From: an uncultured Deferribacteres bacterium
GTDB taxonomy: Bacteria > Zhuqueibacterota > JdFR-76 > DREG01
Length of the DNA stretch: 38,774 nucleotides
NCBI GenBank assembly: GCA_913009825.1
Contig: CAJVYQ010000052.1
Coordinates: 1 to 38,774, forward strand
Reading direction: 5' to 3'
The notes below the pieces were generated by a model. It was not told where the DNA came from. It saw only the letters and a list, made by a program, of their open reading frames with translations, and searched no databases. Position numbers and translations under genes: made by a program. Numbering within the stretch: the stretch's first letter is position 1; every line of letters starts with the position of its first letter. Below, piece after piece: positions 4,449 through 37,239 of this stretch.

Positions 4449-5180
4449 ATGAAAGAAGATCGATTGAAAGTTATTATCCTGCTGGGTCGTCCTGCTGCGG
4501 GAAAATCGGAAGTCATCGACTATTTAAAAAAGGTTCCGGAAACTGAACGGTTCAAACGTTTTCATATCGGCAAATTCGAAGAGATCGATGATTTCCCCAT
4601 GTTGTGGGCCTGGTTCGAAGAAGACGAAATTTTGGCAAAGGTTCTGGAGAAACCGCGTATGCACACCGATAAAGACGGCTATTTTCTTTCCGGGTACCAG
4701 TGGCACCTGCTGATTGAACGGATTGGTCTGGACTATGCAAAAAAATTGCGCGATAACCCGGATTACCACCGGGATGTAACCTGTCTGGTGGAATTTTCGC
4801 GTGGTTCCGAACATGGCGGCTACCGTGAAGCATTTCAGCATCTTTCCGGGGAAATTTTAAAAAACGCCGGTATTGTTTATATCAACGTGTCTTATGAAGA
4901 ATCCAAACGTAAAAACCGCCGTCGTTTCAACCCGGAAAAACCGGACAGTATTTTGGAGCATGGTCTGCCGGATGAGAAACTGGACCGGCTTTACAAGGAG
5001 ATCGATTGGGAAGAAGTAAGTTCCGTTCATCCGGGATATATTGAAATCAAAGGGTATCGGGTTCCTTATGTGATTTTTCAGAATGAACCGGAAATCACCG
5101 ATAAACCGGCAAAGTTAGGCAGGCATTTGGAGGAGGTGTTGCAAAAGCTGAAGAAGCTACGAGATAAATATAGTGAATAA
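4449..5180 (+). CDS. P-loop NTPase/kinase-like protein of unknown role
   Basis: ATG at 4449 follows AAGGA at 4436-4440 and is preferred to a TTG two codons upstream. The 243-residue product opens with a hydrophobic strand and the Walker A motif GRPAAGKS (about residues 12-19), the topology of adenylate-kinase-like and AAA NTPases. A conserved-looking VEFSRGSEHGG segment near the middle may be the Walker B/substrate strand. An Arg/Lys-rich KRKNRRRFNPEKP stretch could be a lid. No family name is recognised. The gene is tightly spaced behind the transporter, so a shared phosphorylated substrate is possible, but this is inference only. Confidence 0.7.
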   Translation: MKEDRLKVIILLGRPAAGKSEVIDYLKKVPETERFKRFHIGKFEEIDDFPMLWAWFEEDEILAKVLEKPRMHTDKDGYFLSGYQWHLLIERIGLDYAKKLRDNPDYHRDVTCLVEFSRGSEHGGYREAFQHLSGEILKNAGIVYINVSYEESKRKNRRRFNPEKPDSILEHGLPDEKLDRLYKEIDWEEVSSVHPGYIEIKGYRVPYVIFQNEPEITDKPAKLGRHLEEVLQKLKKLRDKYSE

Positions 5181-5313
5181 GAGAACAGGAGTTACAAAGT
5201 AACGCCGGTTTTTTACAATTTACAATAAAAAAATGCCCGAGGGTGAATTTTCAGGCTCAGAATTGAAAGACGCCACAAACCGACGCACCCGATTCAGTGA
5301 CCCCTGTGGTTGA

Positions 5314-6087
5314 TTACCACTCTTTGGGTTTAAATCCTCTGCTATTTTTACTCTCCATGATTTTGTCCCCTACTCCCAAAACTACAAATCCCTTTCTTTC
5401 TGCATATTTCAATGCATTTAGCGGGATGTTCAACGCAGCTAAAATCCCAATAATTTTCCTTGATTGATATTCAGGGAAAAAATCTCTGAATGTGGCGATA
5501 TCGTAAATAAATTCTTTTACATATTCATTTTTCAATGTGGTTTTAGTGCTGTTAAAAAACAGTTTATCACCTGCCAGAGCGATAGCGTCAAATTCTTTAT
5601 TACGTCCATCAGGAAGGATGCGGGTAATGCGAATCATGATGCTTTCCGGTTTCAGATCAAATTCTTCCTGTATGATTCTGCCTATACTGGGATAAATAAG
5701 GTCTTCCACCAATGTCCCCATTTTATTCGCTAGATTCCCCCATTGTTTGTTCATTTCTCTTCTTTCCGCTTTTGTCTCATCTTTGAAGACTTTCATCTCA
5801 TCTTTGAAGACTTTCATCTCATCTTTAAAGTCAGTCATCTCATTTTTAAAGTCAATCATCTCATTTTTAAAGTCGGTCATCTCGTCTTTAAAGTCGGTCA
5901 TCTCGTCTTTAAAGACTTTCATTTCGTCTTTAAAATCTTTCATTTCTTTTTGGAAAATGCGCGTTTCATTTTTTAGTTCTAAAATTCCTCTTTCCATGCG
6001 CAATAAAGCGGAACCTGTTTGAGCTACAAACTGGCCAAACAGTGTCTCTAAGCCATCTACACGCTCTTCTAATCTAACAGCCATCAT
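5314..6087 (-). CDS. DUF3782-like coiled-coil protein with PD-(D/E)XK-like C-terminal domain
   Basis: The 257-residue product starts with ATG ATG (6087 or 6084; AAAGGGATT upstream fits the second ATG slightly better). Residues about 40-115 are near-perfect heptads of the type xFKDEMx, predicting a long parallel coiled coil. The C-terminal half has RITRILPDGRNKEFDAIALAGDKLFF, resembling the core of the PD-(D/E)XK-like domain in DUF3782 proteins. The expected catalytic E-x-K is not obvious (FFNSTKTT instead), so nuclease activity is doubtful. Members of this family are common, of unknown role and often multicopy. It is flanked by non-coding DNA and is probably monocistronic. Confidence 0.7.
   Translation of the reverse strand: MMAVRLEERVDGLETLFGQFVAQTGSALLRMERGILELKNETRIFQKEMKDFKDEMKVFKDEMTDFKDEMTDFKNEMIDFKNEMTDFKDEMKVFKDEMKVFKDETKAERREMNKQWGNLANKMGTLVEDLIYPSIGRIIQEEFDLKPESIMIRITRILPDGRNKEFDAIALAGDKLFFNSTKTTLKNEYVKEFIYDIATFRDFFPEYQSRKIIGILAALNIPLNALKYAERKGFVVLGVGDKIMESKNSRGFKPKEW
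5776..5946 (-). repeat. In-frame 21-bp tandem repeats encoding heptads
   Basis: About eight 21-bp units, each encoding E-M-[KTI]-[DV]-F-K-[DN], lie inside the DUF3782-like gene. Neighbouring units differ by a few bases only; the two pairs encoding KVFKDEM are almost identical. Gain or loss of a unit would keep the frame and change coiled-coil length by one heptad, so copy number may vary between strains. Confidence 0.85.
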
Positions 6088-6199
6088 TAATCCCTTTTAT
6101 ATTTATTTTTTTCGATATCATTAATATACGAACAAGTTGCTTACTCAAGCAAATAAATTTCCCCGTGCAGGTAACCAAATTTGCCTGGATTCCCTAATA

Positions 6200-7297
6200 T
6201 CAATTTCCGGATTGTGCTTCTGCAATAATCTCTTTCAGTTGCTCAAATCTTTCCAGAATCGGGATATGCTGGGTGCAGGCGTCTTCACATGCCCGGCATT
6301 GGCTGCATTTTTCCAGGATGGAAATGTCCAGTGCCCAGTGATATTTCATCCTTATTGCCACGGTTTTTGGGTTTTTTTCAAAAATGTAGTTGTTGTACAA
6401 ATCCATGAATTTGGGAATGGGAATGTCATCGACACAGGGCAGACAATAGCTGCAGCCGGTGCAGATTTGATCCAAAGATTGTTCTATTCCTTTCTCCAGA
6501 TTCCGGATTCGCTCCCGGGTTAACACAGGCAGATTCTCCACTGCGGCCACATTTTGTTCCACCTCCGCAATGCTGGCCATGCCTGCCAGCGTGACGGTGA
6601 TTTCCGGATGCGCCATATTGAACCGCAATGCGGCAGAGACAACCGATTGAAAATCATTTTCTTTGATGAAAGCAAATCTCTTTTCGTTTTGCGGAATCAC
6701 CCCGCCGGACAGCGGATTCATGGTAACCACTCCCATTCCGGCTTTATAGGCAGCCAGCACGCCTTCTCTGCGAAAAGGGAAATTAATGATATTGTATCCC
6801 AATGTGATGCCTTCAAACAGCCCCATTTTTACGACTTCTTTGATCTCTTCGCCGGGTTGGTGGCTGGAAATAACCAGATGATCGATTAAGCCCTCTTCCT
6901 TTGCCCGTAAAAATGTCTCAATGGCGCCGCCTTTTTTTGCTTTTTCGAACCGTTCCATGTTCAATACCCACCAGAAATGGTAGAAATCGATTTTATCCAC
7001 TTTCAACCGGGTGAGTGATTGTTCCAGGTCTCTCCTCACTTTTTCACTCTCATTTTCGGCACTTTTGGTGGAGATAAAAACCGGCGATTCGATCTGCTGC
7101 ATAGCCAGGCCCATGATAGATTCGCTTTTATCCCGGCAGTAAGCCGGCGCCGTATCCAGATAGTTAACGCCCAGCTCAACGGCACGGATGATAATTTCGG
7201 CAGATTTTTCCACAGGTTCACCTTCTTTGAAACGCATGCCGCCAAAACCTAAAATAGATACTTTTTTGCCGGTTTTTCCATATTCGCGGTAAATCAT
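6200..7297 (-). CDS. Aldo/keto reductase with C-terminal Fe-S motifs
   Basis: ATG at 7297 has AGGAG five bases upstream (7303-7307) and is preferred to a start six codons earlier. The 365-residue protein begins YREYGKTGKKVSILGFGGMRF, the usual AKR opening. It carries the catalytic set: Asp and Tyr in YLDTAPAY, Lys in ISTKS, His in DFYHFWW. The C-terminal third has CTGCSYCLPC followed by a second cluster CSQCRACEDAC, marking the subgroup of AKRs with [4Fe-4S] ferredoxin-like tails found in anaerobes. Predicted cytoplasmic, NAD(P)H-linked; the substrate is unknown. No obvious operon partner. Confidence 0.88.
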   Translation of the reverse strand: MIYREYGKTGKKVSILGFGGMRFKEGEPVEKSAEIIIRAVELGVNYLDTAPAYCRDKSESIMGLAMQQIESPVFISTKSAENESEKVRRDLEQSLTRLKVDKIDFYHFWWVLNMERFEKAKKGGAIETFLRAKEEGLIDHLVISSHQPGEEIKEVVKMGLFEGITLGYNIINFPFRREGVLAAYKAGMGVVTMNPLSGGVIPQNEKRFAFIKENDFQSVVSAALRFNMAHPEITVTLAGMASIAEVEQNVAAVENLPVLTRERIRNLEKGIEQSLDQICTGCSYCLPCVDDIPIPKFMDLYNNYIFEKNPKTVAIRMKYHWALDISILEKCSQCRACEDACTQHIPILERFEQLKEIIAEAQSGN

Positions 7298-7477
7298 AAC
7301 TACTCCTGTTATCAATAAATTTCCTGTACTAACCTTTGACCGGGCAATTTGGATGAGAATATTTTAGCTAGTTCATCAGGATAAATAATACTTGCATTTA
7401 AAATCTGTTATTTGTAAAATCATCACTAAAGATTGCAAAATTTCAGTTATTTTTCAACCCTATTTTTGAGGTTCATA

Positions 7478-19129: not shown

Positions 19130-21703
19130 TTATTTACTTTCATCAGAATGATTCTGATTTTGGTGATCACTGGAACCACTTGCAGGCTTCCCTGTAATTT
19201 TTTCGTACCACAACGGATGATGACGCCGCGCCCACAGTTTAGTAACCTTACCAACAAAAATTGCCGGAAATGTTCCCGGGTTGGCGCCGGTACTCAAATA
19301 GACATGGGAAAGAACGCCGGACACGCCGAAAAGGGCGGCAATATAATGAATGAAAATGCAAGTAAATACCAAATTGAGCGGCAGATGTTCTCTGAAGAAT
19401 AAAACCGTGCCGGATAAAAGAAGAGCAATTCCGCCAATAATTACCGTCCAGAAATACACTTTCTGACCGGCATTAAACCGATCTGCCGGCACCGGGTCGT
19501 GACCGCCCAGATAACCGCCGAAATTCCGTACCCATTCTTTATCACTGGGGATAAGCATGGCATCTCGCCACCATTGCAACAGCATAAAAAGAACACCAAT
19601 ACCAAAGACAAAACCCAGCCAGCCGTGCCAGACACGCGGCGTTACTGTGTTGCCGAAGAACAATTCCAGAAACCTGCCGCCGCCTCTATAGGCAAAGGCA
19701 AGACCCGTCAAAGCAAGGAAAATAAACGTAAACAACACAAATAAATGAGTTAAACGTTCGAACAAGTTGAACCGATCGATCCTTTCATAATCATCGCTGC
19801 GGGGATGTAACGGCCGACCGCCAAAATCGTGAGGGCCGAAACTGGTGAAGTGAAGTGTAGTAACAAAAAAGATAATGATTAAAACAATCCCCATATAAGG
19901 CCGGATCAGCGGAAAATGGATAGCACAGAGATTGTATGAATAATCGCTTATTCCGATGGTCTTTCTCACCGGTGCAATAACCTGGTTGCCGTTTTCATCG
20001 TAAGGATCAACAATGTATGTTCGTTTAAAAAATTCACCATTGTAGCCGTGGCAGTCGGGACAACCGTTGGCGCCAAGAGCCATTTCCGCCGGCGCAACAT
20101 TGTGGCTGATGGAAAAGCCTCTCCCCTTACAGACTGGATCCCATTTACCAACCAGCAGACTGTCTTGGTTAAATTCCCACGCTTTATCGCCTTTAATGAA
20201 AACCGCATGAACTTGTTCAAACCGGCTGCTTTTATGCAAAACGGTTTCCACGGCTTTCAGTCCCAGCCGGATCTCTTCCCGCTTATTTACTTCGGCAAAG
20301 CCGTCGCCATTGTCGTCGGTAACCCGGCTCCCGTAAATTCCCCAGGCTGCGGCAAGCTCTCTGGCGAACAGCGGGTAAACGATCCCATTCTTCTCACGGT
20401 TTCCCCACCAGATGCCAAAGATGGGATTGATCGGTATAATCTTGCCGTCAAATTTCATATAAGCAGGGTACCAGTCTTCCGGTTTTCCCCATGCTTCTTT
20501 TTTACCGATAATATCCCAATGCAAATTACCGTGGGTCGTATCAAAAAATTGACCGGCGGCGCGATGTTTTTGCGGAATGTGACAGGTTTCACAGGCGATG
20601 TCTTTCAGGTGTGAAGGAGGAATATTCACATGTTTCGGAATGGTTGCACCACGATACCCTTCTGTATGGCAGTCTTTACAGGAACGCATGCTATTGTCCA
20701 GGTCGTCACGCAACGTTTCAATGGTGGTATGTCCTTTGGCAAAATTATGGTCCATACCGGCAGGATGACAATCAACGCAATGCATCCCCTGCTGACTGTG
20801 CACATCGGGGTTCACTTCGTCATGCCAGCTAAAAGCCCGTTTTTTCATATCGGCCGGGCCATGGCACTGCATGCAGTTGTTATCATCTACGGTAGGCTTG
20901 ATATCCAGAACAATTTTGCCGTCCTCATTGAACAGTCGTTTGTTGTACGTCACTTTGGGCTCTGCGGAAGGATCATTATTATCAACGACATCGTATATGC
21001 TTCCTTCAACCGTGCCGATGCCGGAAGCCGCTGTGGAGGCCCATTTGAGGTTCCAGTTTTTCAACTGTTCCGTTCTTGTTTCAAAACTGTAACTTGAGAG
21101 ATGACACATAAAACAATCAGCCTCTAATACGCCGCTTTTATCCCAATGGCTGCCGTAATAATCGCCGTACAGGGAATCGGAGAGAGACGGTTTTTCCGTC
21201 AATCGTTCATCGTACCGTTGGCCATCCCGGTCAAATTCCATGGGGCCGCCACCCGGATGACAACCTGCGCAGGTCGGTTTACCTTCGGGGCCGGTCGTGG
21301 CCCATTGCCATACGGTGATATCCATCTCATCGGGAGAGTGATTTTTTTTCTTCGCCAACTGGCGAAATGACGCCGGTCAGAACTTGCCAAACATGCCGTC
21401 CGACAATACCCAGGGCTGTTCTTTACTATAATGATCGCTCACACTTTTCGCACCCATTTGAAAATGATAACCCTGCACAATATCATCGTAGGAATGACAC
21501 ATATCGCATGTGTTGTAAGTACTGTACGGCTGATCTGCGTTTTCTCCGGTGAGCGGGTTGATAATATCCCCTTCGGAATTCAACAGGTAAAACGGCGGAT
21601 GTTTTCCTGCAAATGAGGCTGTCGGAGGAATGACCAGGATCTGAAATGTGAACAGGAGAAGAATTCCTGCAAGGGCAATGAACAACTTCTTCTTTGCTTT
21701 CAT
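19130..21703 (-). CDS. Octaheme cytochrome c-cytochrome b fusion interrupted by an in-frame TGA
   Basis: The start at 21703 follows GGAAGGAACC. Residues 1-32 are a signal peptide; heme motif 1 is CDMCH (66-70). At codon 109 (21379-21377) a TGA interrupts the frame (MFGKF-stop-PASFRQLAKKK). The same frame then runs on to 19130 with CAGCH, CFMCH, CMQCH, CVDCH, CKDCH, CETCH and CPDCH, making eight c-heme motifs. The last third has four to five membrane helices with cytochrome b561/FdnI-like features (RFNLFERLTHLFVLFTFI, WHGWLGFVFG). Periplasmic electron exchange with the quinone pool is likely. The downstream part lacks a signal peptide and a ribosome site, so it can work only if the TGA is read through. 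The TGA may be a mutation or selenocysteine (see hairpin). Confidence 0.8.
21351..21366 (-). promoter_or_regulatory. SECIS-like hairpin after the in-frame TGA
   Basis: On the coding strand a perfect 6-bp stem TTCGCC/GGCGAA closes the loop AGTT. The loop begins 16 nt after the TGA, and its second base is G. Bacterial SECIS elements are hairpins inside the reading frame with an apical loop roughly 16-37 nt after UGA and a G in the first two loop positions, so the geometry fits. The stem is short and could be chance. Confidence 0.35.
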
Positions 21704-21857: not shown

Positions 21858-22718
21858 TTATTCACTCATTCGAAACATAATCTCTTTCCATATTTTTTTA
21901 ATTTCACCTGCCACGCCATTATTTGAAAATTCCACCACAGGCAGTTCGTGAATTTGAGATTCCACTACTACCGGATCAAAAAGAATTTTGCCAATGACCG
22001 GAACACTATTTTCGGTACAAAAATCTACAATTTGTTGTGTCATCTCCTCATTGATGTCGTATTTGTTGATCACAACCATGGCCGGCAGCTTAAATTGATT
22101 GGCAATTGCCAGTACCCTTTCCAGATCATGAATGCCGGATACACTGGGTTCGGTGACGGCTACAACCAGATCAACCCCGCTGATGGACGAGATAACCGGA
22201 CAACCGATACCCGGAGGACCGTCGATTATTACAAAATCTCTGTTTTGTTCTTCGGCAATTTTTTGCGTTTCATTACGGACAATGGTGACCAGCTTGCCTG
22301 AATTTTCCTCGCCGGCTTTCAATTTTGCATGCACCATGGGACCATACTCTGTATCTGAGATGTACCATTCCCCGGATAGGTTGGTTTTCATTTCCACAGC
22401 GCGGGCAGGGCAGATCATTTCACACAAAGCGCATCCTTCGCAGGCTACCGGATTCACAACAAAATCGGTGATCGCTTTATAGTGACAATACTCCTCACAA
22501 AGTCCGCATTGTGTGCACAATTCCGGATGGATGTATGCAATTTTGCTGTCATAAAATTCGGTGCGTTTTTGAATTTTTGGTTTCAAAATCAGGTGCAGGT
22601 CCGTCGCATCCACATCACAATCTGCCATAACCTTGTTGTCTATCAGGGAAGCCAATGAGGCTGTCAGTGTGGTTTTCCCGGTTCCGCCTTTGCCGCTGAT
22701 AATTGTAATCTGTTTCAT
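21858..22718 (-). CDS. MinD-superfamily P-loop ATPase with inserted ferredoxin (second of pair)
   Basis: A 286-residue protein. The N-terminus IISGKGGTGKTTLTASLA is the deviant Walker A of the Mrp/MinD class. After about 60 residues a two-cluster ferredoxin is inserted (CTQCGLCEEYCHYKAI and CEGCALCEMICPARAV); then the ATPase core resumes with FVIIDGPPGIGCPVISSI and VVINKYDINEE. Proteins of this type occur in pairs next to NifX-like proteins, including the Desulfovibrio ORP operon, where they are thought to assemble or transfer Fe-S clusters. It shares architecture with the gene at 22883. Confidence 0.92.
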   Translation of the reverse strand: MKQITIISGKGGTGKTTLTASLASLIDNKVMADCDVDATDLHLILKPKIQKRTEFYDSKIAYIHPELCTQCGLCEEYCHYKAITDFVVNPVACEGCALCEMICPARAVEMKTNLSGEWYISDTEYGPMVHAKLKAGEENSGKLVTIVRNETQKIAEEQNRDFVIIDGPPGIGCPVISSISGVDLVVAVTEPSVSGIHDLERVLAIANQFKLPAMVVINKYDINEEMTQQIVDFCTENSVPVIGKILFDPVVVESQIHELPVVEFSNNGVAGEIKKIWKEIMFRMSE

Positions 22719-22770
22719 TTTTGTTTCGATCTCCGATTCATAAATTTTCTGATTTTATCAACAAAATTTT

Positions 22771-22797
22771 GTAGTGCGACGAGCCTCGTCGCGCTAC
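22771..22797. repeat. Perfectly placed palindrome between the two MinD-type genes
   Basis: GTAGTGCGACGAG and CTCGTCGCGCTAC pair at 12 of 13 positions around a single C. Next to it, 22816-22834, is a solo end of the family-1 element (ATTGAGCGATTC). The 164-bp gap between the paired genes is therefore made of repeat debris. Confidence 0.7.
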
Positions 22798-22882
22798 ACT
22801 ATTATTCTGTTTTTCCCTGTATTGAGCGATTCAACTGAGTTTCTGCGTTTGTTTGTAATATTGACAACCCCACCAAACAGAT

Positions 22883-23737
22883 TCAGAAAGCACGCACCGC
22901 TCCTGCATGCACTTCCTCTTTGATGCGCTCAAACACCCTTTGCAAAATTATTTTATATTCCGGCTTGGTTTCGATAAGCATTTCGCCCTTAGAGTAACCC
23001 ACGGCTACATCACGACTGAACGGAATTTGCAGAAGAACCGGAATGTTTTTCTCCTCACAATACCGTTCTACCAGATCTGTCCCCAAATCGGATTTATTGA
23101 TAATCACTCCGTGTTCAACATGCAGATCCTCCAGCATGTCCACAGCTAATTTCAGATCATTCAGCCCAAATGGTGTCGCTTCCGTAACCAGAATGCAGTA
23201 ATCACTGGATTGAACCGTTTCCACCACCGGACAATTGGTGCCGGGAGGTGCATCCAGAATAGCGGTTCGATCCGACTCAATTTGTTCGATCAATTCCCGG
23301 ATAACCGGCGTTACCATCGATTCCCCTATGTTAACAATACCGTGAGCAAATGGCATTTCAACAACATGGCCCATTTCCAGAATGCCAATTTCTTTATCCA
23401 CTTCCCGGATCGCCTGTTCCGGGCACAGGATGGAACAAGCGCCGCAACCATGGCAAAGCTGATCAAACAGCAACACTTTATTGGGTACAACAACAAGAGC
23501 ATTGAACTGGCAAATATCGACACAATTGCCGCAGTACGTGCATTTGTTCTCATCAATTTCAGGCAGCTTTATGAAAACCGATTGGCGCTGTTCAAGCCGC
23601 GGTTTTAAAAAAAGATGGCCGTTCGGCTCTTCCACATCGCAGTCCAGGTATTGTGAGTTTTCAAGAGAAAGGGCTAAACTTGTGGAGATGGTTGTTTTTC
23701 CTGTTCCGCCTTTTCCGCTGGCAACAGAGATAATCAT
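22883..23737 (-). CDS. MinD-superfamily P-loop ATPase with inserted ferredoxin (first of pair)
   Basis: A 284-residue protein. The Walker A is ASGKGGTGKTTISTSLA. The inserted ferredoxin has CTYCGNCVDICQFNAL and CHGCGACSILCPEQAI, binding two [4Fe-4S] clusters; the core then resumes with AILDAPPGTNCPVVETV and IINKSDLG. It starts 15 bp after the NifX-like gene 23753, so the pair is one operon. Inferred to work with the second MinD-type protein as a heteromeric cluster carrier, by analogy with the paired ORP ATPases. Confidence 0.92.
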   Translation of the reverse strand: MIISVASGKGGTGKTTISTSLALSLENSQYLDCDVEEPNGHLFLKPRLEQRQSVFIKLPEIDENKCTYCGNCVDICQFNALVVVPNKVLLFDQLCHGCGACSILCPEQAIREVDKEIGILEMGHVVEMPFAHGIVNIGESMVTPVIRELIEQIESDRTAILDAPPGTNCPVVETVQSSDYCILVTEATPFGLNDLKLAVDMLEDLHVEHGVIINKSDLGTDLVERYCEEKNIPVLLQIPFSRDVAVGYSKGEMLIETKPEYKIILQRVFERIKEEVHAGAVRAF

Positions 23738-23752
23738 TTTTTTAATTCCATT

Positions 23753-24127
23753 CTATTGAGCTAACGTAACAAATTTTTTGGCATCATCGTCCCAGGTTAA
23801 AAAACGCTCCAGCTCATTATTAAAATAAGCTGTGGCCGCTTCATGGGCGGAATCAATCTGAGTGAGCAATAATTTTTTGCCCAGGCTTTTCAGCTTTTTT
23901 GCTGATGCCCGTCCCATGCTTTTGCCGATCAGGACATCGCTGTCCCGGATAACTCCCAGCACTCTGTCTACCTGCTGGTGGTCATCCTGATCGAAGTAAG
24001 GATTTTCTTTCACTTCCCGGGTTAAAACCTGATTGCCATCCCGGACAAAAAACATAAAATAATGCCCCCGGCCGAAATGACCTTTGCGAATATTTGTTTT
24101 GTCGTCACTGCTAATTACAATTTTCAT
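23753..24127 (-). CDS. NifX/NifB-C-like (dinitrogenase Fe-Mo cofactor) family protein
   Basis: A 124-residue single-domain protein. It has GHFGRGHYFMFF near the N-terminus (the HFGR motif of the family), SDVLIGKSMGRASAKKL, and a hydrophobic core pattern as in NifX/NafY and the ORP protein. Family members bind metal-sulfur clusters (FeMo-co, or the Mo/Cu cluster of ORP). It is the first gene of the run NifX-MinD-MinD. No nif genes are visible, so nitrogen fixation is not implied. Confidence 0.85.
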   Translation of the reverse strand: MKIVISSDDKTNIRKGHFGRGHYFMFFVRDGNQVLTREVKENPYFDQDDHQQVDRVLGVIRDSDVLIGKSMGRASAKKLKSLGKKLLLTQIDSAHEAATAYFNNELERFLTWDDDAKKFVTLAQ

Positions 24128-27358: not shown

Positions 27359-27430
27359 AATCCATACCTCCTTCTATTAAAAATGATGTAATAACAATTT
27401 CCGTTTAATTTTTGCTATTTTCATCTATAC

Positions 27431-27679
27431 TCACATTATTTTTACGCCGCCGAGTTCCTCTCGAAGCTTTCGTTTCAAATGCTCCGGCGCTTTCATCTTT
27501 TGACCAAATTGTTGTACTGCTTGTTTTATCCGAACCTCTTCCAAAACCAAATTGTGACAAACCGGGCACTCTTTCAGATGCAATAAAACCGCCCGGTTCT
27601 TCTCCGGCGACAGTTCATGATCAACATAAGCGCTGATCAATTTCCGGATTTCATCACAATTTAATTTTGCCGATTCCAT
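27431..27679 (-). CDS. zf-HC2 domain protein (anti-sigma-factor-like)
   Basis: An 82-residue protein. LNCDEIRKLISAYVDHELS, then HLKECPVCHNLV, fits the Cys/His zinc-binding zf-HC2 fold (C8, H21 region, ECPVC). The C-terminus is a charged helix with no membrane segment. In the family this fold binds ECF sigma factors, but no sigma factor gene is adjacent. It begins 4 bp after the permease stop, so they are probably translationally linked. Confidence 0.75.
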   Translation of the reverse strand: MESAKLNCDEIRKLISAYVDHELSPEKNRAVLLHLKECPVCHNLVLEEVRIKQAVQQFGQKMKAPEHLKRKLREELGGVKIM

Positions 27680-27683
27680 TCTT

Positions 27684-28563
27684 TCACCACCCCATCGCCA
27701 ATAAAACAGATCCGATAACCAATCCGTAGGCCACGTTAAATATCTTAATGATCACGGAATCTTTCACCGAAAAGGAGAGCATCGGCAGCATACCATGGCC
27801 GTCCTGAACGATTGAACTGGCCGCCAGAATTGAAAACGGCACTGCACCCTTGGCGAACAACATGACAATGACCATGTGCGGCCCGGATTCCGGAATGATG
27901 CCAGATGTGTTCTTTTAGATAGTGCTCGGGTGTGCTGCCGATCACCACGGCAGCAATGGCAACCAATGAAACCATGGTAATTCTTTTCCAGTCCCAATTT
28001 GGCGGACCGATCACACCCTGGATGAACAGGAACAGAAAAACCAAACCGATAATCAACAGTACCGCACGGTAAAATGAAATATGGAGAAAGTAACCGGCCA
28101 ACTCATCCCGTTTGAAACAATCGCAATATTCTTCTGTGTGCACCACCTGCAGCTTACACTCCCGACATGTTTTTAGTTGCAGCCACGCCACAATTTTATC
28201 CGTTATCCAGGCGAGAAGAATGCCGAGAAAGAACAACAAAACAAAAAGCAGAAACGCTTTTTTCGGAAACAAAGTTAACATTACGAATGCTTCGTCGCCG
28301 CTGGTGGCAATCATGCCGCCAACGATGGCGCCGAAGGAAATTAATCCGTTAACGTAAAAAGAGACGTTCAGATAAGCGCCCAAACAACCGGGCGTACTGC
28401 CTAAAAACGAAGCGATGCTGTACTGTCGCCACCGATTCCCTTTGATAAGAAAAGAGAGTTTACCCTTGCTGACTATATTGCAATAATCCACCAACAGCAT
28501 CATCACAAACACAAAAAGCGTGATCATGAGTGCATGGGTTAAATTATCAAGCAAAATTTTCAA
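27684..28563 (-). pseudogene. Frameshifted 10TM putative heavy-metal exporter (ArsP_2-like)
   Basis: TTG at 28563 with AAGAGGTGAAG upstream is the likely start. The first frame has hydrophobic helices with SFLGSTPGCLGAYLNVSFYV and FGAIVGGMIATSGDEAFVML, as in the putative 10TM heavy-metal exporter family (PF11449), plus a cytoplasmic Cys-rich loop (CRECKLQVVHTEEYCDC). The frame fails near 27895-27900, after KEHIW. A one-base shift restores IPESGPHMVIVMLFAKGAVP and SSIVQDGHGMLPML and runs to 27684 with the expected second GxxP-type repeat. A one-base error in the read would make it whole. It would otherwise lose its last helices. Confidence 0.75.
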
Positions 28564-28647
28564 CTTCACCTCTTGATTTATACGACAACACAAGGTTTCA
28601 AAAATAGTATTCTGAGCGAATAAAAGCAGCGAAACATCTCATATCTT

Positions 28648-28956
28648 TCACGAAGAAAACCGCTCCGTTGGTATGAGATTCTTCTTCATTTCATTTCTTT
28701 GAATGACTGACTTGCGCTGCAGCAGATAGGGCAGCCCGCCAATATGATCCCAATATTCGTGTGAAATAACAATATGTTGAATTTTTCCCGGAGAAATTCC
28801 CAATTTTTTCATGTTTTCCAAAAGAAGAACGCCATCGCTGCCGGTGTCAAATAAGATAGTTTGTTTTTCCGTTTCTATCAGGCAACTGTATCCCCAACCG
28901 GTTTGCAACTCCGGATTGTGGGGCGTATTGTCAAATAGTACGGTTGACTTAATCAT
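28648..28956 (-). pseudogene. Truncated metallo-beta-lactamase-fold protein
   Basis: A 102-residue fragment. LQTGWGYSCLIETEKQTILFDTGSDG and IVISHEYWDHIGGL match the start of the MBL fold in the RFA-P-synthase-like group. The metal motif should be HxHxDH, but the second His is Tyr (HEYWDH). About 150 residues with the remaining ligands are missing. The last 18 codons come from a repeat (GAATCTCATACC...) that replaces the rest of the gene. A Fur box lies 42 bp upstream. Confidence 0.75.
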
Positions 28957-29948: not shown

Positions 29949-30539
29949 TCAGGATTTTTCCTCGTCTTCTTTGGCTTTCTTCTCCAGTTTGGAGATACGT
30001 TCCATGATCGTATTAAACTGCTCGTTCAATTGACCCGCTTGTTTTTTCAGTTCTTCCAGGTCGTCCGCTTTAGCCGGAGTTGGCGGCGGTTGTGGCGGCA
30101 TCGGCGGCTGTGGCGGATAGTATGCCTGTCCGCGCCCCATGCCTCTGCCACGCCCCATACCCGACCCCGCCATACCACCTGCCATGCCAAAGTGAGAAGG
30201 ACCGGGTTGATTGACCTGAGTTAGTAATCCGGCTTTAAAAGCTTCGATTGTTTCCCGCACTGAACCGCCGGTAGCCTGATAACTGGGGATGCCGATGGCT
30301 TGCAGCGTTTGATAAGCGTTCGGCCCCAGCACACCGCTGATAACCGCCTGAACACCGTAATTGCTGATCATCTGCGCGGCCTGAATCCCCGCCCCACCGC
30401 TTGCACCCATGTGAGGATTGCTGATTGATTCGTAAGCCATTGTTTCCATATCAACGATAACATAGTACTGGGTTCTGCCAAAACGCAAATCAACCGGCGA
30501 ATCCAAATCCGTTCCCAATGCCGACACCGCTACTTTCAT
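29949..30539 (-). CDS. NifX-like protein with Gly/Pro linker and coiled coil
   Basis: A 196-residue protein. Residues 1-110 are a NifX/ORP-type domain (KVAVSALGTDLDSPVDLRFGRTQYYVIVD, with the FGR motif, and VQAVISGVLGPNAYQTL). Residues 115-150 are a Gly-Met-Arg-rich then Pro-rich linker (GMGRGRGMGRGQ, PPQPPMPPQPPPTP). Residues 155-196 are a charged coiled coil, LKKQAGQLNEQFNTIMERI, that is shared with the next two genes upstream. The family binds metal-sulfur cofactors. Order and spacing put it in one operon with the ferredoxin and the DUF5320 proteins. Confidence 0.85.
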   Translation of the reverse strand: MKVAVSALGTDLDSPVDLRFGRTQYYVIVDMETMAYESISNPHMGASGGAGIQAAQMISNYGVQAVISGVLGPNAYQTLQAIGIPSYQATGGSVRETIEAFKAGLLTQVNQPGPSHFGMAGGMAGSGMGRGRGMGRGQAYYPPQPPMPPQPPPTPAKADDLEELKKQAGQLNEQFNTIMERISKLEKKAKEDEEKS

Positions 30540-35970: not shown

Positions 35971-36120
35971 AAAAAAGCAAATTGACTCTTGTTTTTTAAG
36001 AGGGAAAATTATGGCACTATCAAGACAAAAACTAAATGGTTTTTAAGTAAAACATGCAGAAATCAAAGAACAGAATGGCTTTCTTTCAGACACCAAATAT
36101 ACGATCCGGGAGACAGTAAG

Positions 36121-37239
36121 ATGAGAAGTATGATGTTTTCTTTTTCAATTGCACTATTATCAATTGGTTTATCATTTGGACAATCTTTGCTGCTTCATCA
36201 TTCAAACGCAGATATTAACTGCAAAGAATGCCATTCCTGCGATAAACCCACCGCAAAAAATCCATGCCTGTTGATTTGTCCTGATTTTACCGGAAAAGGT
36301 ATAACATTAAAACATTCCGCAGATAAAACGCCGGAAACGATAAAAATTGATGTTCTTTCTGAAAAATATGAAGCTGCTGTATTTCCCCATAGATTACACG
36401 CGGAAATGGCAGATATGGCCGGCGGATGTGTTTTATGTCATCATAATAACAGTCCGGGACAGGTTTCTCCGTGTATTGAATGCCATAAACCTAGCAAACA
36501 AAGAACGAGTCTTAGTAAACCTGATTTAAAAGCGGCCTATCACCGGTTATGTTTGAGTTGTCACATAGAATGGAAACATGAAAATGATTGTACCAGTTGT
36601 CATGCCTTAAAAGGGAAAAAGGGAATGGTGACTGATAAAGCAAAATATATTGGTAAAAAGCATCCAACTATAAAAAAACCGACAAAAAAAGTTTACAACA
36701 CAGAATATGATGAAGGTAAATTCGTTACATTTTACCATGATGATCATGTTAAAAAATTCAATTTAAACTGTGTAGATTGTCATCAGGATGAAAAATGTGC
36801 CCGTTGTCATGATACGGCCGGAACGACTCTTGTACAGGAAAGAGAACCTCATGATAACTGCATAGCATACCATGAACAGGACATCAACAATAATTGCGGC
36901 AAATGTCATGCTGATAAGGAACGGCCACCTTTTAACCATGCAAAATCGACAGGCTGAGAGCTAAAACCCTATCATCAAGGTTTGCATTGTCAAGCTTGTC
37001 ATGGAAATAAGAAACAATTCACAAAAGTTAATCCCTCTTGCTCAACCTGTCATAAATCCTGGGATGCGGATAAATTTAACCATAAGGTTACCGGATTCAA
37101 ATTAGATGAAAATCACGTAAGCATTGAATGTGAAGCGTGTCATATTAATAACAACTTTCTGGAAAAACCGAATTGCAGCACATGTCATGATGATAAAAGC
37201 TATCCAAAAGACAAGCCGGGAAAACGAATAAAAGATTAA
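36121..37239 (+). pseudogene. Multiheme c3-type cytochrome with in-frame TGA and one lost heme Cys
   Basis: The ATG at 36121 gives a signal peptide (MRSMMFSFSIALLSIGLSFG) after GGGAG at 36106. The reading frame to 36957 has nine heme sites, eight intact (CKECH, CVLCH, CIECH, CLSCH, CTSCH, CVDCH, CARCH, CGKCH), and one damaged, CIAYH, where the second Cys is Tyr. A TGA at 36955-36957 follows FNHAKSTG, where Trp is usual (TGW). The same frame continues ELKPYHQGL with CQACH, CSTCH, CEACH and CSTCH to 37239. Thirteen sites in all, twelve intact. Periplasmic electron carrier family. If the TGA is not read through, the last four hemes are lost. Confidence 0.8.

Follow-up and report, generated by a model that had tools for sequence, protein, structure and literature searches.

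Evidence that an in-frame TGA in an octaheme cytochrome c gene is very probably read as selenocysteine

The window analysed here, a stretch of DNA of 38,774 nucleotides, carries a gene for an octaheme cytochrome c that is interrupted by an in-frame TGA codon (Table 1). Does this codon end translation, or is it read as selenocysteine (Sec)? An earlier reading made from the letters alone (the sequence-only reading) had offered selenocysteine as a possibility and judged a simple nonsense mutation equally possible. The layout that it described is borne out by sequence and translation: heme 1 and the signal peptide lie before the TGA, and the seven other hemes and the membrane part follow in one frame with no new ribosome site or signal peptide. 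The N-terminal part encoded 5' of the TGA contains a signal anchor, and 3' of the TGA the frame is intact and conserved across 748 residues. The sole start that opens a long frame past the TGA is a TTG within the RQLA codons (position 21358), and the lack of a signal peptide in this frame makes a second cistron improbable.

Table 1. Features of the octaheme cytochrome gene, and the second in-frame TGA of the window
Feature	Position	Strand	Remarks
Octaheme cytochrome c with C-terminal cytochrome b	19130..21703	-	857 aa with TGA as Sec (U109); PF14522/PF14537, PF01292; TIGR01583 above cut-off
Start ATG, GGAAGGAACC immediately upstream	21703	-	Sequence and translation
Heme 1 motif CDMCH, before the TGA	21494..21508	-	
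TGA codon, residue 109, predicted selenocysteine	21377..21379	-	Same column: TGA in 31 other homologues, Cys in 44
Bacterial SECIS-like hairpin TTTCGCC-AGTT-GGCGAAG	21350..21367	-	Loop 21360-21357, 16 nt past the TGA; inner TTCGCC-AGTT-GGCGAA at 21366-21351
Lys119 codon, 10 residues past Sec109; candidate heme ligand or active-site residue	21347..21349	-	Invariant in 44/44 aligned; role inferred
Heme 2 motif CAGCH, then invariant PGGG	21257..21271	-	First motif past the TGA
Heme 3 motif CFMCH	21101..21115	-	
Heme 4 motif CMQCH	20861..20875	-	
Heme 5 motif CVDCH	20765..20779	-	
Heme 6 motif CKDCH	20666..20680	-	
Heme 7 motif CETCH	20579..20593	-	
Heme 8 motif CPDCH	20048..20062	-	
Membrane cytochrome b domain, formate dehydrogenase gamma type; predicted quinol-side module	19190..19783	-	TIGR01583, Foldseek 1kqf_C
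Stop TAA	19130	-	Sequence and translation
Second in-frame TGA, in small multiheme cytochrome gene 35989-37239	36955-36957	+	Phe in next repeat of motif (HKVTG-F-KL)

Homologues were taken from genomes of the same phylum and from 84,980 GTDB species, which were scanned using an alignment as query; an earlier contig scan with a single protein as query had given no match. Of the 89 genes in which the column of residue 109 was readable, 32 carry TGA and 44 carry Cys; the remaining 13 have Tyr (8), Thr (2), Phe (2) or Ser (1). In five loci an alignment gap offsets the stop by one column, and the peptide GG-x-W-stop-SPAP assigns it to the same residue. The sequence-only reading had held that homologues without Cys or Sec at this place would speak against selenocysteine; Cys or TGA occupies the column in 76 of the 89. 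Trp is found in none of the homologues, and Cys dominates the non-TGA forms. The TGA carriers belong to at least seven phyla, including Chloroflexota, Desulfobacterota, Bacillota, Aquificota and Nitrospirota. The 13 homologues with Tyr, Thr, Phe or Ser count against the selenocysteine reading, since they show that Sec or Cys at residue 109 is dispensable for the fold. Tyr is a third state (loci L065, L070, L072, L073, L074, L081, L087 and L091), found in a subclade made up mostly of Acidobacteriota. In the two paralogue groups (L002 and L020 from the same genome as the window, and L038) the column lacks Cys, and neither group has an NCBIfam match at E <= 1e-10. Among the matches listed in a plasmid search there were cytochrome b domains only.

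A tree made by a quick method, in which the deep joins are unsure, has at least five changes between Sec and non-Sec forms. Clade A, with the motif SDGMxGKx-U-PPxFRQLA, is mostly Sec and includes Tyr forms in Acidobacteriota. Clade B, with the motif SPGNYGGxW-C-SPAPLY, is mostly Cys, and its Sec forms come from Thermodesulfatator, Aquificota, Desulfohalobiaceae and Nitrospirota. The window gene groups with two Chloroflexota genes (L056 and L059, 67% identity), apart from the more distant copies of its own phylum, and this placement suggests that it was acquired by horizontal transfer.

Downstream of the TGA, the hairpin described by the sequence-only reading is present, with its loop (AGUU) 16 nt past the TGA, G as the second loop base and a stem of six perfect base pairs plus a U-G pair. 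The published bSECIS model has a loop of 3-9 nt, a stem of 4-16 bp, G in the first two loop positions, a spacing of 16-37 nt and an MFE of -7.5 or lower (PMC13188914); the window hairpin lies within every one of these limits. For the 18-nt element alone, the folding energy is -8.8 kcal/mol (z = -4.6). A 66-nt region folded as a single sequence is not remarkable (z = -0.8), so the significance of the hairpin comes from the comparison across homologues and not from the local fold. An Rfam scan of the TGA and hairpin region gave chance matches only. When a hairpin is called present on a G among the first two loop positions and a score of at least 12, it occurs in 31 of the 32 TGA genes compared with 2 of the 57 non-TGA homologues (Fisher p = 2e-20). 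L117 is the single TGA homologue without a hairpin that fits the model, and it counts against the selenocysteine reading.

The codons beneath the hairpin point in the same direction. The RQLA peptide is encoded by CGCCAGTTGGCG in 25 of the 26 TGA genes that have it, with Leu as TTG in all, compared with 1 of the 17 non-TGA genes with RQLA, where the codons are otherwise variable. In a synonymous null, in which the downstream peptide was recoded randomly with the codon usage of each gene itself, p was below 0.05 for the hairpin in 29 of the 32 TGA genes (window gene, p = 0.006). In 25 sequences of equal length, 97.1% of the stem pair cells are standard pairs, compared with 41-71% (maximum 71.4%) when one strand is slid, and at two pairs both sides have changed, from UA to CG. 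In L019, which has two additional residues and a different peptide, the hairpin is retained and shifted to match. These sequence comparisons indicate that the hairpin is retained and that codon choice is under a constraint additional to that of the encoded peptide. L069, a Cys form, has the same RQLA codons as the TGA genes and keeps the SECIS hairpin sequence; it may therefore represent a recent change from Sec to Cys with a fossil SECIS. The contig of L069 carries two family members a short distance apart (415-2784 and 4836-7403), both with Cys, of which the second keeps the hairpin sequence.

The sequence-only reading had proposed looking for selA, selB, selC and selD, and took a genome with no sel genes as evidence against selenocysteine. 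In the genome of the window (G000), selA and selB are adjacent on contig C86 (L155), both full length and over their cut-offs (selA, 558.6 bits against 267.9; selB, 347.4 bits against 242.25). The other half of the set, selC (tRNA-Sec) and selD, was not found in the draft, which is the weak point of the selenocysteine reading. The draft consists of 123 contigs and is 96% complete; because of this state of the draft, missing sequence is the simplest reading of their absence. Candidates for tRNA-Sec turned out to be Ser, Leu, Trp and other tRNAs, and the few matches to a tRNA-Sec pattern did not resemble it. A selD candidate, L050, is HypE/AIR-synthase-like and under the SelD cut-off. Both selC and selD are present in the three same-phylum carriers of the same TGA (G004, G005 and G056), and the named TGA-carrying genomes that were tested for the pair have both. 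In the comparison across genomes, 27 of the 32 TGA carriers have selA, as do 15 of the 27 others (p = 0.02). Tetranucleotide composition agrees with the genome for the window contig (r = 0.975) and for C86 (r = 0.965), and contamination as the source of the window contig was rejected on this basis.

The missing selC and selD bear on the best of the alternatives, in which the gene encoded a true selenoprotein when it was acquired, the lineage has since lost selC and selD, and the TGA now terminates translation. The kinship with the Chloroflexota genes is consistent with this, as is the persistence of selA and selB without their partners, and a Sec formate dehydrogenase was looked for and none was found. 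However, two small loci can be absent from such a draft, and after such a loss the cytochrome as well as selA and selB would be expected to decay, whereas the cytochrome shows none and both sel genes have kept their full length. We consider this course of events improbable.

Still less probable is a TGA that is simply a real stop, produced by a recent nonsense mutation or a sequencing error, which would make the cytochrome a pseudogene or a misread gene. The absent selC and selD could be cited here too, and the window does contain other damaged genes. The sequence-only reading had pointed to in-frame stops in other genes, and in another cytochrome of the window a TGA does fall on a Trp/Phe-like column, which shows that nonsense changes arise in this DNA. 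No SECIS-like hairpin fits at that TGA, which is likely to be a nonsense change or sequencing error rather than Sec. An exporter gene of the window seems to be frameshifted. Against a stop at codon 109, however, 31 homologues from many phyla have the identical codon in the identical column, the hairpin accompanies it in all but one of the TGA genes, and the downstream frame is intact over its whole conserved length. Nonsense mutation is thus not the equal of selenocysteine that it was earlier taken to be. Finally, reading of UGA as another residue (Trp suppression or other recoding), or two cistrons with an internal restart, is hardly credible: Tyr or Phe does stand at the column in some homologues, but Trp does not and Cys prevails in the non-TGA forms, the hairpin fits the SelB-dependent SECIS rules, and none of the starts past the TGA comes with a ribosome site or a signal peptide.

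Taken together, the Cys/TGA column, the hairpin that tracks the TGA, the codon constraint and the presence of selA and selB strongly support selenocysteine. Since related genes in many unrelated bacteria have the same codon and RNA signal, or Cys, at this place, it is highly likely that the gene encodes a selenoprotein in which UGA at codon 109 is read as selenocysteine, and this selenoprotein is very probably functional. SelB and Sec-tRNA would decode the UGA at the ribosome, directed by the SECIS hairpin downstream, to give a periplasmic, membrane-anchored octaheme cytochrome c fused to cytochrome b.

In 44 full or near-full proteins, the 16 heme Cys and eight heme His are invariant, and six further His of the heme domain (80, 302, 319, 358, 365 and 534) are conserved in 43-44 of the 44. 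Lys119 and Lys288 are invariant in the 44 aligned proteins. There are thus six conserved distal-type His for eight hemes, which leaves two hemes without one. This suggests that Sec109, situated between hemes 1 and 2, and Lys119 may form a catalytic or substrate-binding site, and the Sec/Cys position is the likely reactive site of the family. An AlphaFold model, made without hemes, has a pLDDT of 86. Foldseek recognised the membrane part only (1kqf_C, FdnI; E = 2.8e-9), and sequence and fold searches of the PDB returned only FdnI and short heme stretches. The likeness of the C-terminal membrane part to FdnI suggests, by analogy, that quinol is the electron donor. Electrons from menaquinol would pass via cytochrome b and then the hemes to a site made up of Sec109, Lys119 and a heme without distal His, where Sec could act as heme ligand or nucleophile. 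In chemical terms, it would be unusual for a quinol-linked respiratory protein to have selenium beside its hemes.

The surroundings of the clade A loci give no function because the neighbours are not conserved. In clade B, core arsenic transport or ArsF/ArsG genes lie near 18 of 44 loci compared with 2 of 44 in clade A (p = 7e-5); the neighbours include the ACR3 arsenite exporter, ArsF and ArsG (organoarsenical resistance), a SaoE/SO_0444-like permease, ArsC and ArsR. L131, a Sec form from Nitrospirota, likewise lies inside an arsenic gene island. In the window, a fragment of an ArsP_2-type exporter lies within 10 kb of the octaheme cytochrome, as does an ATPase of the ArsA type. From these neighbourhoods we favour metalloid or sulfur chemistry, with low confidence; the islands near the Cys homologues provide a testable first guess at the substrate. 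We tentatively suggest that the enzyme acts on metalloid or sulfur species that react with thiols, such as oxyanions of arsenic, selenium or sulfur, or organometals. Slightly more doubtful is the full reading, according to which these respiratory octaheme cytochromes make up a selenoprotein family not described before, their Sec or Cys forms a catalytic site with Lys and the heme without distal His that reduces arsenic, selenium or sulfur compounds, and Sec and Cys have been exchanged repeatedly across many phyla.

Arsenic islands with ACR3, ArsF and ArsG repeatedly encode an octaheme cytochrome (L131, L133, L120, L115, L096, L099 and other clade B loci), and we found no paper that links such a cytochrome to arsenic islands. 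In the window, the ArsP_2 heavy-metal exporter (27405-28593, reverse strand) has its C-terminal part seemingly in another frame (27405-27875), i.e. a frameshift, and a truncated metallo-beta-lactamase of 102 aa (28648-28956, reverse strand) is a possible gene remnant. Directly upstream of the cytochrome (21858-24127, reverse strand) are two MinD/ParA ATPases with ferredoxin domains and a NifX-like protein; a second NifX-like protein lies at 29949-30539.

The family is present in the cultured Desulfoluna limicola, Desulfoprunum benzoelyticum, Fundidesulfovibrio agrisoli and Ammonifex thiophilus. Automatic annotation would split such genes in two, concealing a family of respiratory enzymes. Our literature search found no paper that describes it, and since the heme part of the window protein reaches no cut-off of the curated NCBIfam models, it appears to be an undescribed selenoprotein family within a known kind. 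A recent list of 119 prokaryotic selenoprotein families includes ExtKL and a GenBank-annotated 'tetrathionate reductase family octaheme c-type cytochrome' (PMC13188914, 2026); the latter, WP_331457571.1, is annotated as a selenoprotein member of TIGR04315, and the present family may overlap with it.

Family members match TIGR04315 and TIGR04314 only distantly. Proteins of TIGR04315 share the eight CxxCH hemes, a weak profile similarity over hemes 5-7 and the one GenBank record said to contain Sec. However, the window protein scores 35.2 bits against a cut-off of 375, all 44 members of the present family are far below that cut-off (best E 2e-15), and the present family is fused to a membrane cytochrome b. 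In octaheme tetrathionate reductase the catalytic heme 2 is Lys-ligated (PMC11024163); against its pattern of seven bis-His hemes and one Lys-ligated heme, the present family has, in sequence, the six conserved non-motif His and two invariant Lys described above. MmcA, the methanogen multiheme cytochrome (TIGR04314), is distantly similar over hemes 3-7 (40.7 bits), but it has seven hemes, its cut-off of 250 is missed by the window protein, and a Sec/Cys site is not reported for it (PMC11024163). FdnI (1kqf chain C) resembles residues 641-836 (TIGR01583, 138.9 bits against a cut-off of 115.85); here, in contrast, the membrane domain is fused to a multiheme cytochrome, and the annotated genes of the window include no catalytic subunit of a formate dehydrogenase. 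ExtKL (NF040886), which together with the TIGR04315 record is the nearest named selenoprotein, and the GSU2937-type cytochromes of Geobacter are likewise multiheme c-type proteins with predicted Sec; a Geobacter case was first flagged through an in-frame TGA (PMC1914089). NF040886, however, is not among the matches of the window protein at E <= 0.001. GSU2937 has five hemes, no SECIS was found for it and it has no non-Sec homologues (PMC1914089), whereas the present family combines eight hemes with a clear SECIS and includes 44 Cys homologues.
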